A DNA stretch of 64,000 nt, from assembly GCF_900120005.1 (NCBI RefSeq), contig NZ_LT635449.1:310001-374000 (forward strand), read 5' to 3'. The position numbers and the translations under genes were made by a program. The DNA is from Holdemania sp. Marseille-P2844 (GTDB lineage Bacteria > Bacillota_I > Bacilli_A > Erysipelotrichales > Erysipelotrichaceae). Under the pieces are notes generated by a model. The model had not been told where the DNA came from, ran no database searches, and worked only from the letters and a program-made list of their open reading frames with translations. Shown piece after piece: positions 12,764 through 35,322 of the stretch. Positions within the stretch are counted from its first letter, which is position 1, and every line of letters starts with the position of its first letter.

Positions 12764-13134
12764 GCCTTCTATCGTGTAAGCCATGTTCTGTTCCCGATCC
12801 CTGCGGACCGGGCGGCAACCATTTATCTCCGTCCTTGCGGACGGCTTCCGCGCCCTTCATTTCAGGTCTGGAAGTTCCCCTACCAAATTTGGGTTTCTCG
12901 CTTGCGGGGTTTATCGCGTTCCACTTTCCGGGTTTCCCCGGAAACTCCGTCACTGTGACACTGTTACAGACGTCCGCCATAGTTCAAACGAACCTTAGGG
13001 TTTCGTCAGCCGTCAGCCTTGCGGCTGCCCGGTCTTATTGATTGGGCCGGCGCAAACACTACAATCATCGCAGATTGTGCGAGCATGGACTTTCCTCTAG
13101 CTTTGGTCAAGCCAGCGATTGCCCGGATAGAAGA
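12764..13134 (-). ncRNA. rnpB: RNase P RNA, Bacillus (type B) class
   Basis: About 370 nt. The conserved core is readable: AGAGGAAAGTCCATGCTCGC near the 5' end, TAGTGTT, the GGCAGCCGCAAGGCTG region, the AGGGGAACTTC segment, and GAACAGAACATGGCTTAC near the 3' end. The P1 helix pairs CTTCTAT at the 5' end with ATAGAAG at the 3' end. It is the catalytic RNA that trims tRNA 5' leaders. It abuts the gpsB stop, the same neighbour as in B. subtilis. A TATAAA box inside the gpsB 3' end (13153-13158) may be its promoter. End points are approximate. Confidence 0.95.
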
Positions 13135-22057: not shown

Positions 22058-22636
22058 GTGTTAAAGAAACTGATGATCGGATCCATGGGATTCCTTTTTC
22101 TCAGCAGCGCTACGTTGTTTTCTTATCGGGCGCTGGAACCGAAAGCCGCCACGGGCATTGAGGAAAGCTATTTAAGCGCTGCCCAGTCGACGGATAATCT
22201 TCGCTCCGTGGAACCCGCTGACAACGCAGCGCCCGCAGCGGCTTCTGCCCAACCGGCATTGGAACCCGGACTGCATCATATCTATTTCTGCCGTCCGGAC
22301 AACGACGATTGCGCTTATATCAACGAATATGTCTTCAAGCCGTTGGCGCAGGAGCTGAAAACAACCGCGCTGGACGCATTTGAATTTTATGATCTGACCA
22401 GCCTGGGTGAAAATTACCCAGCCGCCAAGCTGAAGAGCCAGTGGGGCTTTGAAAGCTATCCGGCGTTTGTTTCTCTGAGTGTCGCCGACGATGGCGTACA
22501 GACGGTTAACAGCGTTCTCAGCTGGAACAAGGAAGATCCGATCGACGCCCAGAGCTTGAAGCTGTGGATGATCGACAACGGCATCTGGACCGGCGAAATT
22601 GAAGATCAGGGAGAATTGATCGAACAACCGGAATAA
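22058..22636 (+). CDS. exported thioredoxin-fold-like protein, function unknown
   Basis: 192 residues starting at GTG (22058) with GAGGAG nine bases upstream. A hydrophobic N-terminal anchor or signal (about 3-25) and an Ala/Pro/Glu-rich linker precede a domain resembling a thioredoxin fold: a beta strand IYF, then a Cys pair six residues apart (CRPDNDDC, about 79-86), a helix, FYDLTS, and a strand after WGFESYPAF with the cis-Pro-like YP. The Cys spacing is not the usual CxxC, so redox activity is uncertain; it may be a substrate-binding or peroxidase-like variant. Monocistronic. I do not recognise a named family. Confidence 0.7.
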   Translation: MLKKLMIGSMGFLFLSSATLFSYRALEPKAATGIEESYLSAAQSTDNLRSVEPADNAAPAAASAQPALEPGLHHIYFCRPDNDDCAYINEYVFKPLAQELKTTALDAFEFYDLTSLGENYPAAKLKSQWGFESYPAFVSLSVADDGVQTVNSVLSWNKEDPIDAQSLKLWMIDNGIWTGEIEDQGELIEQPE

Positions 22637-22664
22637 GTCCTGAATTTCAGGACTTTTCTTTTTT
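22635..22664 (+). terminator. intrinsic terminator after the thioredoxin-like gene
   Basis: AAGTCCT/AGGACTT stem followed by TTTCTTTTTT; the 5' arm begins at the stop codon. Confidence 0.75.
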
Positions 22665-22671
22665 CCGGCGC

Positions 22672-22700
22672 TTGTTTTTTTTGTAAGAATAGTCTAAACT
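22672..22700 (+). promoter_or_regulatory. promoter of the ZTP-riboswitch transcript
   Basis: -35 TTGTTT (22672-22677), 17-bp spacer, -10 TAAACT (22695-22700). It places the transcript start a few bases before the aptamer. Confidence 0.5.
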
Positions 22701-22706
22701 TTTTGG

Positions 22707-22800
22707 TGGATGTGCAACTGGCGGATCAGTGGAATAACCACAGGGAGCACAATTCTGAAACAGCCGACCGCCTGGGCCGGGAGTCATTCCCGTTGAATTT
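22707..22800 (+). promoter_or_regulatory. ZTP (pfl-motif) riboswitch
   Basis: The layout matches the ZTP aptamer: an outer helix GTGC (22712-22715) / GCAC (22747-22750), the internal-loop segment AACTGGCGGATCA, the hairpin GTGG-AATAA-CCAC, the AGGGA loop, then a downstream GCC...CCGCCTGGGC hairpin (22768-22777) that forms the pseudoknot. ZTP/ZMP signals a shortage of 10-formyl-tetrahydrofolate. Next comes a CGGGA/TCCCG hairpin without a T-run, just before the AGGGAGG ribosome site, which suggests translational control. The gene it governs acts in the same pathway, supporting the call. Confidence 0.88.
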
Positions 22801-22813
22801 AGGGAGGAAATTT

Positions 22814-23527
22814 ATGCAAAAAATCTCACTCAAAGAGGATCTTCAACAGAACACCTACCCGGGACGGGGCATCGTGCTGGGCAAGACGCCGGACGGCCGC
22901 AAAGCGGCGGCCGCGTACTTCATCATGGGCCGCAGTGAAAACAGCCGCAACCGCATCTTTGTCACAGACGGACAGGGGATCCGCACGCAGGCTTACGATC
23001 CCTCAAAGCTGACCGATCCGTCGCTGATCATTTATGCACCGGTGCGCGTTCTGGGCAACAAGACGATCGTCACCAACGGCGATCAGACCGATACGATCTA
23101 CGCCGGCATGGACAGGCAGCTGACGTTTGAACAGGCGCTGCGCAGCCGGGAATTCGAGCCGGATGGACCGAACTTCACGCCGCGGATCTCCGGGATCCTG
23201 CATATCGAAAACGGCCAATTCAACTATGCGCTGTCGATCTTAAAAAGCAGCGACGGCAATCCGCAGTCCTGCCACCGCTACACCTTCGCATACGAAAATC
23301 CACTGGCGGGTGAAGGTCATTTCATTCACACCTACATGCACGACGGGGATCCGCTGCCCAGCTTTGAGGGCGAACCCAAGCGCGTGGAAATCCCGGATTC
23401 GCTGGACGCACTGACCACGCTGTTGTGGGATAATCTGAATCCGGACAACAAGGTTTCCCTGTTTGTCCGCATGATCGATCTGGAAAGCGGCGAAACGGAA
23501 ACCCGCATCGTCAACAAGCATGCATAA
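22814..23527 (+). CDS. IMP cyclohydrolase (PurO-like family)
   Basis: 237 residues from the ATG at 22814 (GGGAGG upstream). The conserved start YPGRGIVLGKTPDGRKAAAAYFIMGRSENSRNRIF matches the archaeal-type IMP cyclohydrolase family (Pfam IMP_cyclohyd). It closes the ring of FAICAR to IMP, the last step of purine synthesis, done by PurH in most bacteria. The ZTP riboswitch in front senses ZMP-derived nucleotide, the substrate one step earlier, so control and reaction agree. Cytosolic. Not certain: bacterial members are little tested and some may have another activity. Confidence 0.82.
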   Translation: MQKISLKEDLQQNTYPGRGIVLGKTPDGRKAAAAYFIMGRSENSRNRIFVTDGQGIRTQAYDPSKLTDPSLIIYAPVRVLGNKTIVTNGDQTDTIYAGMDRQLTFEQALRSREFEPDGPNFTPRISGILHIENGQFNYALSILKSSDGNPQSCHRYTFAYENPLAGEGHFIHTYMHDGDPLPSFEGEPKRVEIPDSLDALTTLLWDNLNPDNKVSLFVRMIDLESGETETRIVNKHA

Positions 23528-23564
23528 GCGGCCAATTCACCCGGTGATCGCTTAAAACCAAGCA

Positions 23565-23623
23565 AAAGGATGTCTGATTTCCCGGAGAGCGTCTCCGCAG
23601 ATGAAATCAGACATCCTTTTTTT
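23565..23623 (+). terminator. strong intrinsic terminator after the IMP cyclohydrolase gene
   Basis: A 14-bp perfect stem (AGGATGTCTGATTT and its complement) enclosing a second perfect hairpin CGGAGA-GCG-TCTCCG, followed by seven T. Confidence 0.9.
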
Positions 23624-33400: not shown

Positions 33401-35322
33401 ATAGGGTAGAGGGAAAATAAATTTCGCCCCTCCCATTGCACCGTACGTACGGATCTCGTATACGGCGCTACATATGTATTGCTGTCACGAATAACTTAGA
33501 TAGTACTCTAAAGGATTGACTAAGCCTTGTCTTTCCTTTTTCTTTATGGCTAGTATTCTGGGATTTAAGATGTAGTTTACCACATTCATTCCACATCTTC
33601 GATACCATCCTAGTCTTGAATTTGCTACTTTAAATATGTCTTCCTCTGTAAAGGAAAAATTTTGCAGTTTATTCAGTCTTTGCAGATTTATATAAATCCG
33701 TTTCGGTATCTTCCATTGCTTAATAATAACCACTCTTATTTTGTGTCTTAACCATTGTCCGAATTTATCCAAGAATTGTTTCATACTTCCGATACGGAAA
33801 TAGTTTATCCATCCTCGTATAATTTGGTTTATTCTTTTAAATGTCTCTGCTAATGGTCTTGCTACTGCGTGTTTCCGTTTTAGTATTTCTTTGATTTTCA
33901 TGCATAACTTCGCTTTCCTGTTATCGCTTGGCCTACACTTCCATCCCATACTTCCTTTCCAGAACGTAAAACCTAGAAAATTACTTTTCGTCGGTCTTAC
34001 GATTTTGGTCTTTGTCGCACTCACTTTTAAGAATAGTTTTCTTTCTAGCCACCATGTGATTGATTTCATTACTCTTTCTGCTGCCATTTCGCTCTTTACG
34101 AAGATGTTACCATCATCAGCGTACCTCACAAAGCGCAGCCCTCTCTCTTCAAGTTCTTTATCAAGCTTATCTAAATATATATTTGATAGTACTGGACTGA
34201 GTGGTCCTCCTTGTGGTACTCCTGCTTCATTTGGACTTACTAGTCCATCTTCCATAACTCCTGCTTTTAAGAACGAACGTATCAGATGCAGTATTTCTCT
34301 TTCATTCACATGTTCTCTAAGTATTGAGATTAACTTGTCATGATGTACTGTATCGAAATATTTTTCTATATCTATGTCAATAACCCATTCGTATCCTTCG
34401 TTTAGATATTCTAATACTTGTTCCATCGCATTATGTGCACTTCTATTGGGGCGAAACCCATAACTGTTTTCACTGAAATGTGGTTCATATATTTCGCTCA
34501 GTATCTGCGCTAATGCTTGTTGTATTACTCTATCTGTTACTGTCGGTATACCTAGCGGTCTTTGCTTTCCATCTGCTTTTGGTATATAGACTCTCCTTAC
34601 TGGCTTTGGTTTATATTTCATATTCATGATTGCGGTTATAATTTCCTCTCCATGTATTTCAAAATATTTGTCAATTTCTTCCACCATCATGTTATCAACA
34701 CCCGGTGCGCCTTTGTTACTCTTGACTTTCTTTATCGCCAGTTCCATATTTCTTTTACTTAGCATCTTTTCTATCAATCTCATTCGCTGTTCCTCCTCTA
34801 CTCGTAGATTTATCCAAGACCATCCCCACTACTTTCCTCATCAATGATTACGATTCATTGTTTCAGAGTATCCTCATTTTCGGATTGCTTGAACATTTTC
34901 TCATAGTGATTCACACTATACATACATTAAGTCCTTCGTTATCTAGGCTGGATAACTAATATGACCTCAGCTGACTTCTTGTGATAAACCTTTTTCGACC
35001 GATGCTACCATCCCTGATTTTAAAGTTTATTGGACTTCATCGTTCACAAGACCTCCCGGGGTAAGACATACATCTCTTTCCTATCTTCACAAGTTCCTGA
35101 TTTACTGTCTTGGTTTTACGTTTACCTTTTGGACTTTGGTTTGTTTCGCAACCTTATCCACCATTTAGCCTCATCAGGTTTCTGTTCGTAACCTCGAAGA
35201 TTTTGCTACACCACTTCCTTCACCCTTAACATCACTGCTAACGACTTGTGGTTCACTACACTTGGCGGTAAATACCCGTGGTTGGATTTTCACCAACTAG
35301 ATGTATGCCATGCCCGGCACAC
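33401..35322 (-). mobile_element. group II intron inserted in ylmH
   Basis: 1922 bases, same strand as the host gene. The 5' end reads GTGTGCC (group II GUGYG). Domain V is visible near 33440-33475 (AGCGCCGTA ... TACGGTGC with the AGC triad). Domain VI has a bulged A seven bases before the 3' end CTACCCTAT. The maturase ORF lies in domain IV; 34784-35322 is the 5' ribozyme part (domains I-III). Base composition is clearly AT-richer than both flanks, indicating transfer. Boundaries are supported by exact restoration of the YlmH frame. Confidence 0.92.
33485..34783 (-). CDS. ltrA: group II intron reverse transcriptase/maturase
   Basis: 432 residues. Reverse-transcriptase blocks are intact: GAPGVDNM, KADGKQRPLGIPTV, YGFRPNRSAH, the GVPQGGPLSPVLSNIYLD block, and the catalytic YADDGNIF (about 218-225). 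The GIIM maturase domain X follows (GWINYFRIG). The protein ends at the FKVANSRLGWYRRCG region with no HNH endonuclease, so mobility would rely on endonuclease-independent targeting. It stabilises the intron RNA for splicing and copies it during retrohoming. ATG with GGAGG upstream. No frameshift seen, so the element may be active. Confidence 0.95.
   Translation of the reverse strand: MRLIEKMLSKRNMELAIKKVKSNKGAPGVDNMMVEEIDKYFEIHGEEIITAIMNMKYKPKPVRRVYIPKADGKQRPLGIPTVTDRVIQQALAQILSEIYEPHFSENSYGFRPNRSAHNAMEQVLEYLNEGYEWVIDIDIEKYFDTVHHDKLISILREHVNEREILHLIRSFLKAGVMEDGLVSPNEAGVPQGGPLSPVLSNIYLDKLDKELEERGLRFVRYADDGNIFVKSEMAAERVMKSITWWLERKLFLKVSATKTKIVRPTKSNFLGFTFWKGSMGWKCRPSDNRKAKLCMKIKEILKRKHAVARPLAETFKRINQIIRGWINYFRIGSMKQFLDKFGQWLRHKIRVVIIKQWKIPKRIYINLQRLNKLQNFSFTEEDIFKVANSRLGWYRRCGMNVVNYILNPRILAIKKKERQGLVNPLEYYLSYS

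Follow-up and report, generated by a model that had tools for sequence, protein, structure and literature searches.

We find that purO, a gene for a PurO-type IMP cyclohydrolase in the 64,000-nucleotide stretch of Holdemania sp. Marseille-P2844 analysed here (the window), is preceded by a ZMP/ZTP riboswitch aptamer, and that a stand-alone AICAR formyltransferase elsewhere in the genome has an aptamer of the same class. We favour, with a probability of roughly 0.8, the reading that purO is a single-gene unit under a ZTP riboswitch, with its partner formyltransferase under a switch of its own and both answering one signal. A shortage of 10-formyl-tetrahydrofolate would cause AICAR (ZMP) and ZTP to accumulate, and their binding to the purO aptamer would raise PurO expression. 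The stand-alone formyltransferase, on another contig behind its own riboswitch, would convert AICAR to FAICAR, and PurO would close the FAICAR ring to give IMP. Control would be exerted at translation for purO and at transcription termination for the formyltransferase, and purO may have come from a Lachnospiraceae-like donor and replaced an older PurH2. Since the formyltransferase lies behind its own ZTP switch, the two activities that are usually combined in one bifunctional PurH would answer the same signal from two places.

The aptamer is located at positions 22704 to 22784 of the forward strand, where a whole-window Rfam scan matches the full RF01750 model (1-86 of 86) at 59.1 bits, above its gathering score of 39 (E = 4.7e-7). 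Sequence and Rfam alignment place the two strands of its pseudoknot on the forward strand at 22720-22724 (GGCGG, 5′ strand) and 22768-22772 (CCGCC, 3′ strand). The core is intact, with the 3′ conserved block CCGACCGCCTGGGC ending at base 22777, and an alignment of 26 aptamers from relatives shows that the pseudoknot and the invariant core columns are retained. With only two RF01750 sites in the 3.68 Mb genome, one in the purO leader and one in the formyltransferase leader, a chance match at purO is excluded, and this count together with the score also rules out a mis-called aptamer.

By score and alignment, a genuine ZTP riboswitch aptamer precedes purO, so that the Rfam check bears out the aptamer claimed by a sequence-only reading of this DNA. 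That reading began its region at 22672, about 30 nt 5′ of the aptamer, in a leader or promoter stretch. The spacing between aptamer and purO is 30 nt, an arrangement kept in all four genomes of the genus.

Control of purine genes by ZTP goes back in the literature to the description of the pfl motif, a class which controls purH, fhs, pfl, glyA and folD (PMC2864571). The purO leader resembles this class in having a full-length aptamer, an intact pseudoknot core and a purine gene, but here purO takes the place of purH and the platform near it has no terminator.

The purO gene occupies positions 22814 to 23527 of the forward strand and encodes a protein of 237 aa that matches PF07826 with 231.3 bits (cut-off 28.1). 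It starts with an ATG at 22814, 6 nt downstream of an AGGGAGG Shine-Dalgarno sequence (22801-22807, forward strand), and its end agrees with the end coordinate given by the sequence-only reading. Upstream lies a 192-aa open reading frame (22058-22636) with an intrinsic terminator at 22635-22666 on the forward strand, a 9-pair stem followed by TTTTCTTTTTT, which sets purO apart from it. A strong intrinsic terminator follows purO at 23564-23623 on the same strand, with an 18-pair outer stem, a run of seven T and a folding energy of -32.6 kcal/mol including flanking bases. Bounded by these two terminators, purO constitutes a single-gene unit. Elsewhere in the window, a group II intron is found at 33485-35241 on the reverse strand (Rfam D1-D4 matches at 35068-35241 and 34931-34995); it carries a 432-aa reverse transcriptase-like open reading frame (33485-34783) and is flanked by small housekeeping-type open reading frames.

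Domain searches place PF07826 once in the genome, in purO, and PF01808 also once, as a stand-alone AICAR formyltransferase (G000:C16:487-1659, minus strand; model positions 75-311). The latter covers the complete NF005492 equivalog (1-390 of 390) with 695 bits against 415, and sits on a different contig from purO, with its own ZTP aptamer (49 bits) just upstream. The same searches of the contigs found neither PurH nor a PurH2 cyclohydrolase domain, nor PurP, as read from a draft assembly of 17 contigs that is 96.6% complete. The sole MGS domain sits in a 1064-aa open frame, whose length fits the large subunit of carbamoyl-phosphate synthase and which is not a PurH. SAICAR synthetase (PurC) is present on contig C14 with 296 bits; a second, weaker homologue of this enzyme is found at G000:C16:182888-183517 on the forward strand (133 bits).

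No gene in the genome other than purO is known to be capable of purine ring closure, and, as far as domain content in the draft genome shows, the purine end-step is split between purO and the stand-alone formyltransferase. The sequence-only reading had suspected a split or alternative end-step; the separate ZTP-controlled formyltransferase confirms this, and the search for purH and purP that it proposed found neither in the draft assembly. Bifunctional PurH (TIGR00355) is a single fused protein whose cyclohydrolase domain is unrelated to PurO and which was not found in this genome; PurO and the formyltransferase would together cover the same steps, from AICAR through FAICAR to IMP.

We compared 60 genomes of relatives, the window's own included. 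PurO is found in six of them, namely all four of the genus and two other genera of the same family (G021 and G026), and none of the six contains a PurH2 domain. Both ZTP switches, on purO and on the formyltransferase, are present in every genome of the genus. Among the 60 relatives, a lone PurH2 (about 195 aa) accompanies the same formyltransferase in seven genomes and a full PurH does so in two, while 33 possess just PurH. Across the wider class PurO is uncommon, with 2 of 149 genomes carrying it, again counting the window's own.

Gene order is informative in this sample. G021 and G026 have adjacent purO-formyltransferase pairs, and in G021 the order is purN, purO, formyltransferase, with a ZTP site heading the operon. 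A lone purH2 is located directly 3′ of purN in G036 and G004, as purO is in G021, so that PurO takes the PurH2 slot. A purH cut to its cyclohydrolase half (about 195 aa) beside a stand-alone formyltransferase is seen in G055, G036, G004, G039, G041, G042 and G047; at G055:C158:9723-9974 the purH match extends through four stop codons, which looks like continuing decay of the other half.

Across 84,980 species genomes scanned, at least 592 PurO loci were found. The best 80 of these are nearly all from Lachnospiraceae, with identities of 71-81%. In 77 of these best 80 loci the formyltransferase is directly 3′ of purO; as to the remaining three, the contig ends there in L079 and L136, while L101 has the formyltransferase elsewhere. 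A ZTP aptamer lies 45-419 nt 5′ of purO in 32 of the same best 80 loci. In one uncultured Lachnospiraceae genome, a second ZTP-like aptamer (L120:5330-5409, reverse strand, 43.5 bits) lies on the opposite strand, some 3 kb beyond the purO-formyltransferase pair. Thirty genomes with a Lachnospiraceae-type PurO, reached through their loci, were tested whole: PF01808 is present once in each, always in stand-alone form, and PurH was found in none of the 30. The split pathway is thus widespread in gut Lachnospiraceae, and is under-described rather than strange.

The Lachnospiraceae operon (PF07826 with NF005492/PRK07106) encodes the same two proteins as found here, often with one ZTP switch ahead. 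In the window's genome the genes are instead split between two contigs and have a ZTP switch apiece, and the formyltransferase affiliates with the organism's own order. In the tree, the formyltransferase of the genus falls among those of order-mates lacking PurO (support 95/97), and its mean identity is 65% to the Lachnospiraceae set and 61-66% within the family. PurO groups with Lachnospiraceae, apart from the family members G021 and G026 (99/95), and the window's protein has a mean identity of 75% to the Lachnospiraceae set versus 45-57% within the family. In a rate-calibrated identity test for gene transfer, which decided the matter only in part, the query genus lies within 0.7 sd of the Lachnospiraceae line, and G021 and G026 fall 6 to 7.5 sd below it.

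The simplest reading that these trees and identities suggest is that purO arrived later from a Lachnospiraceae-like donor and displaced a PurH2; this is suggested rather than shown, because the PurO sample for the tree was chosen by likeness to the query. Adjacent pairs in G021, G026 and Lachnospiraceae would also fit the inheritance by the genus of a one-switch purO-formyltransferase operon that later broke apart with duplication of its leader, with no separate import of purO. We consider this unlikely, as the two genes have different tree placements, the high PurO identity to Lachnospiraceae has no counterpart in the formyltransferase, and the two leaders differ in type. The window also contains a class B RNase P RNA (12772-13130, reverse strand, 294 bits), a form expected of a Bacilli-type lineage rather than of Lachnospiraceae.

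The difference between the leaders lies in their expression platforms. The sequence-only reading had proposed a translational platform formed by a CGGGA/TCCCG hairpin next to the ribosome site. This hairpin (22778-22792, forward strand) is directly 3′ of the aptamer and is a candidate part of the platform. It is found in three of the four genomes of the genus, with seven pairs in G002, and is absent in G001, whose purO leader must work without it. A second element, UUCCC at 22787-22791 on the forward strand, is a candidate anti-Shine-Dalgarno sequence that appears in the predicted folds of G003 and partly in those of the window's genome. It shares bases with the hairpin's 3′ arm, and its pairing with GGGAG at 22802-22806 competes with the hairpin. 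From these folds, the UUCCC/GGGAG pairing is the likelier candidate for blocking the ribosome site than the hairpin itself.

Neither a terminator nor a T-run was found by scanning and folding in the purO leaders of the four genomes of the genus. The formyltransferase leaders of all four, meanwhile, contain an aptamer strand, AGCCG, that can pair with a downstream CGGCT preceding a run of six or seven T; this stem was missed by a simple terminator scan with a loop limit of 8 and was revealed by folding. The pfl switch of Clostridium beijerinckii likewise has a terminator, one that displaces P3 together with the pseudoknot (PMC10085676). Among the aptamer-bearing Lachnospiraceae purO leaders in the best 80 of at least 592 loci, 26 of 32 have terminator T-runs. 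ZTP switches are ON switches (PMC2864571). Folding with the aptamer closed off gives a ribosome site that is predicted to be more accessible in all four purO leaders, by 0.05 to 0.34, a rise that is small in two of them.

Translational control of purO is plausible because its leader has no terminator, in contrast to the formyltransferase leaders and the majority of Lachnospiraceae purO leaders with an aptamer, and the predicted folds make such control the probable mode. The earlier proposal remains plausible as to the kind of platform, but the ribosome site lies outside the CGGGA/TCCCG hairpin itself. Could that hairpin instead act by transcription attenuation? A terminator-like scan lists it (22778-22792), and terminators are used by most of the aptamer-bearing Lachnospiraceae purO leaders counted above. 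Nevertheless its tail is TTGAATTTAG and not a T-run, it has no overlap with a pseudoknot strand, unlike known ZTP terminators (PMC10085676), and it is missing from G001, all of which makes attenuation improbable. With translational control of purO retained as the preferred mode, we propose, tentatively and at somewhat less than even odds, that the genus combines a formyltransferase of its order's type with a PurO acquired from a Lachnospiraceae-like donor, each under a ZTP switch of its own and with a different output, termination and translation respectively. If true, a single signal would tune two consecutive enzymes relative to each other within the same cell.

The assignment of the protein to PurO draws on family, fold and genomic context. 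MTH1020 PurO is its best solved relative by sequence. An AlphaFold model built from 36 bacterial sequences (pLDDT 89.7) has MTH1020 PurO (2ntk) as its top match, with Z 21.5 and 2.6 Å over 196 residues, compared to Z 11.8 and below for other NTN-hydrolase folds. R45, Y74 and E115 are invariant among the 36 sequences and align with the archaeal catalytic Arg, Tyr and Glu. These residue types are the catalytic ones of archaeal PurO, and for TK0430 complementation of an E. coli ΔpurH strain has been carried out (PMC6797443). The bacterial protein thus shares with archaeal PurO (MTH1020, MJ0626, TK0430) the PF07826 family, the NTN-hydrolase fold and the Arg/Tyr/Glu residues; the bacterial branch differs in being about 35 residues longer and only about 18% identical in structural alignment. 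The archaeal PurO equivalogs are not reached (TIGR01922, 40.4 versus 158.35 bits; NF003167, 45.8 versus 150 bits), and missing these cut-offs by far means that activity is not proven by sequence alone.

Judging from family and fold scores, the protein is a member of the PurO family (PF07826) in a separate bacterial branch, and the PurO-like cyclohydrolase gene called by the sequence-only reading is upheld at 231 bits and Z 21.5. Its description as archaeal-type in a bacterium overstates the oddity, because the branch, which scores under the archaeal equivalogs, is widespread in Lachnospiraceae. The strongest evidence that bacterial PurO would be the cyclohydrolase is its complementarity with PurH across genomes. 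We know of no bacterial PurO member that has been assayed, and the low identity to characterised archaeal PurO and the missed equivalog cut-offs would suit a protein that had drifted to another role, with an unknown enzyme closing FAICAR and the switch controlling a folate-stress side activity, but invariant catalytic residues, pairing with the formyltransferase in 77 of the best 80 of at least 592 loci, strict PurO/PurH2 complementarity in the 60 relatives and the 30 Lachnospiraceae-type genomes, and occupation of the purH2 slot in a pur operon make this very unlikely.

The ZTP-purO observation is real and mostly ordinary. ZTP control of purine genes is already known, and PF07826 and NF005492 name both proteins; what is added is a modest variation, with two switches and two kinds of platform on two steps of a short pathway. 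A literature search, which left out the 2015 ZTP paper, found no paper joining a ZTP riboswitch with IMP cyclohydrolase, and an earlier notice of the pairing is quite possible. PurO has been described as exclusive to Archaea (PMC4177761) and was reported in 22 of 1266 bacteria (PMC6797443).

Based on our data, PurO appears to be the usual IMP cyclohydrolase in many Lachnospiraceae of the gut, replacing PurH and often under ZTP control, which makes the bacterial enzyme worth an assay. The genus would be a naturally occurring case of two ZTP switches acting, within the same cell, on consecutive steps of a single pathway. Finally, a gut genome without purH need not mean purine auxotrophy.
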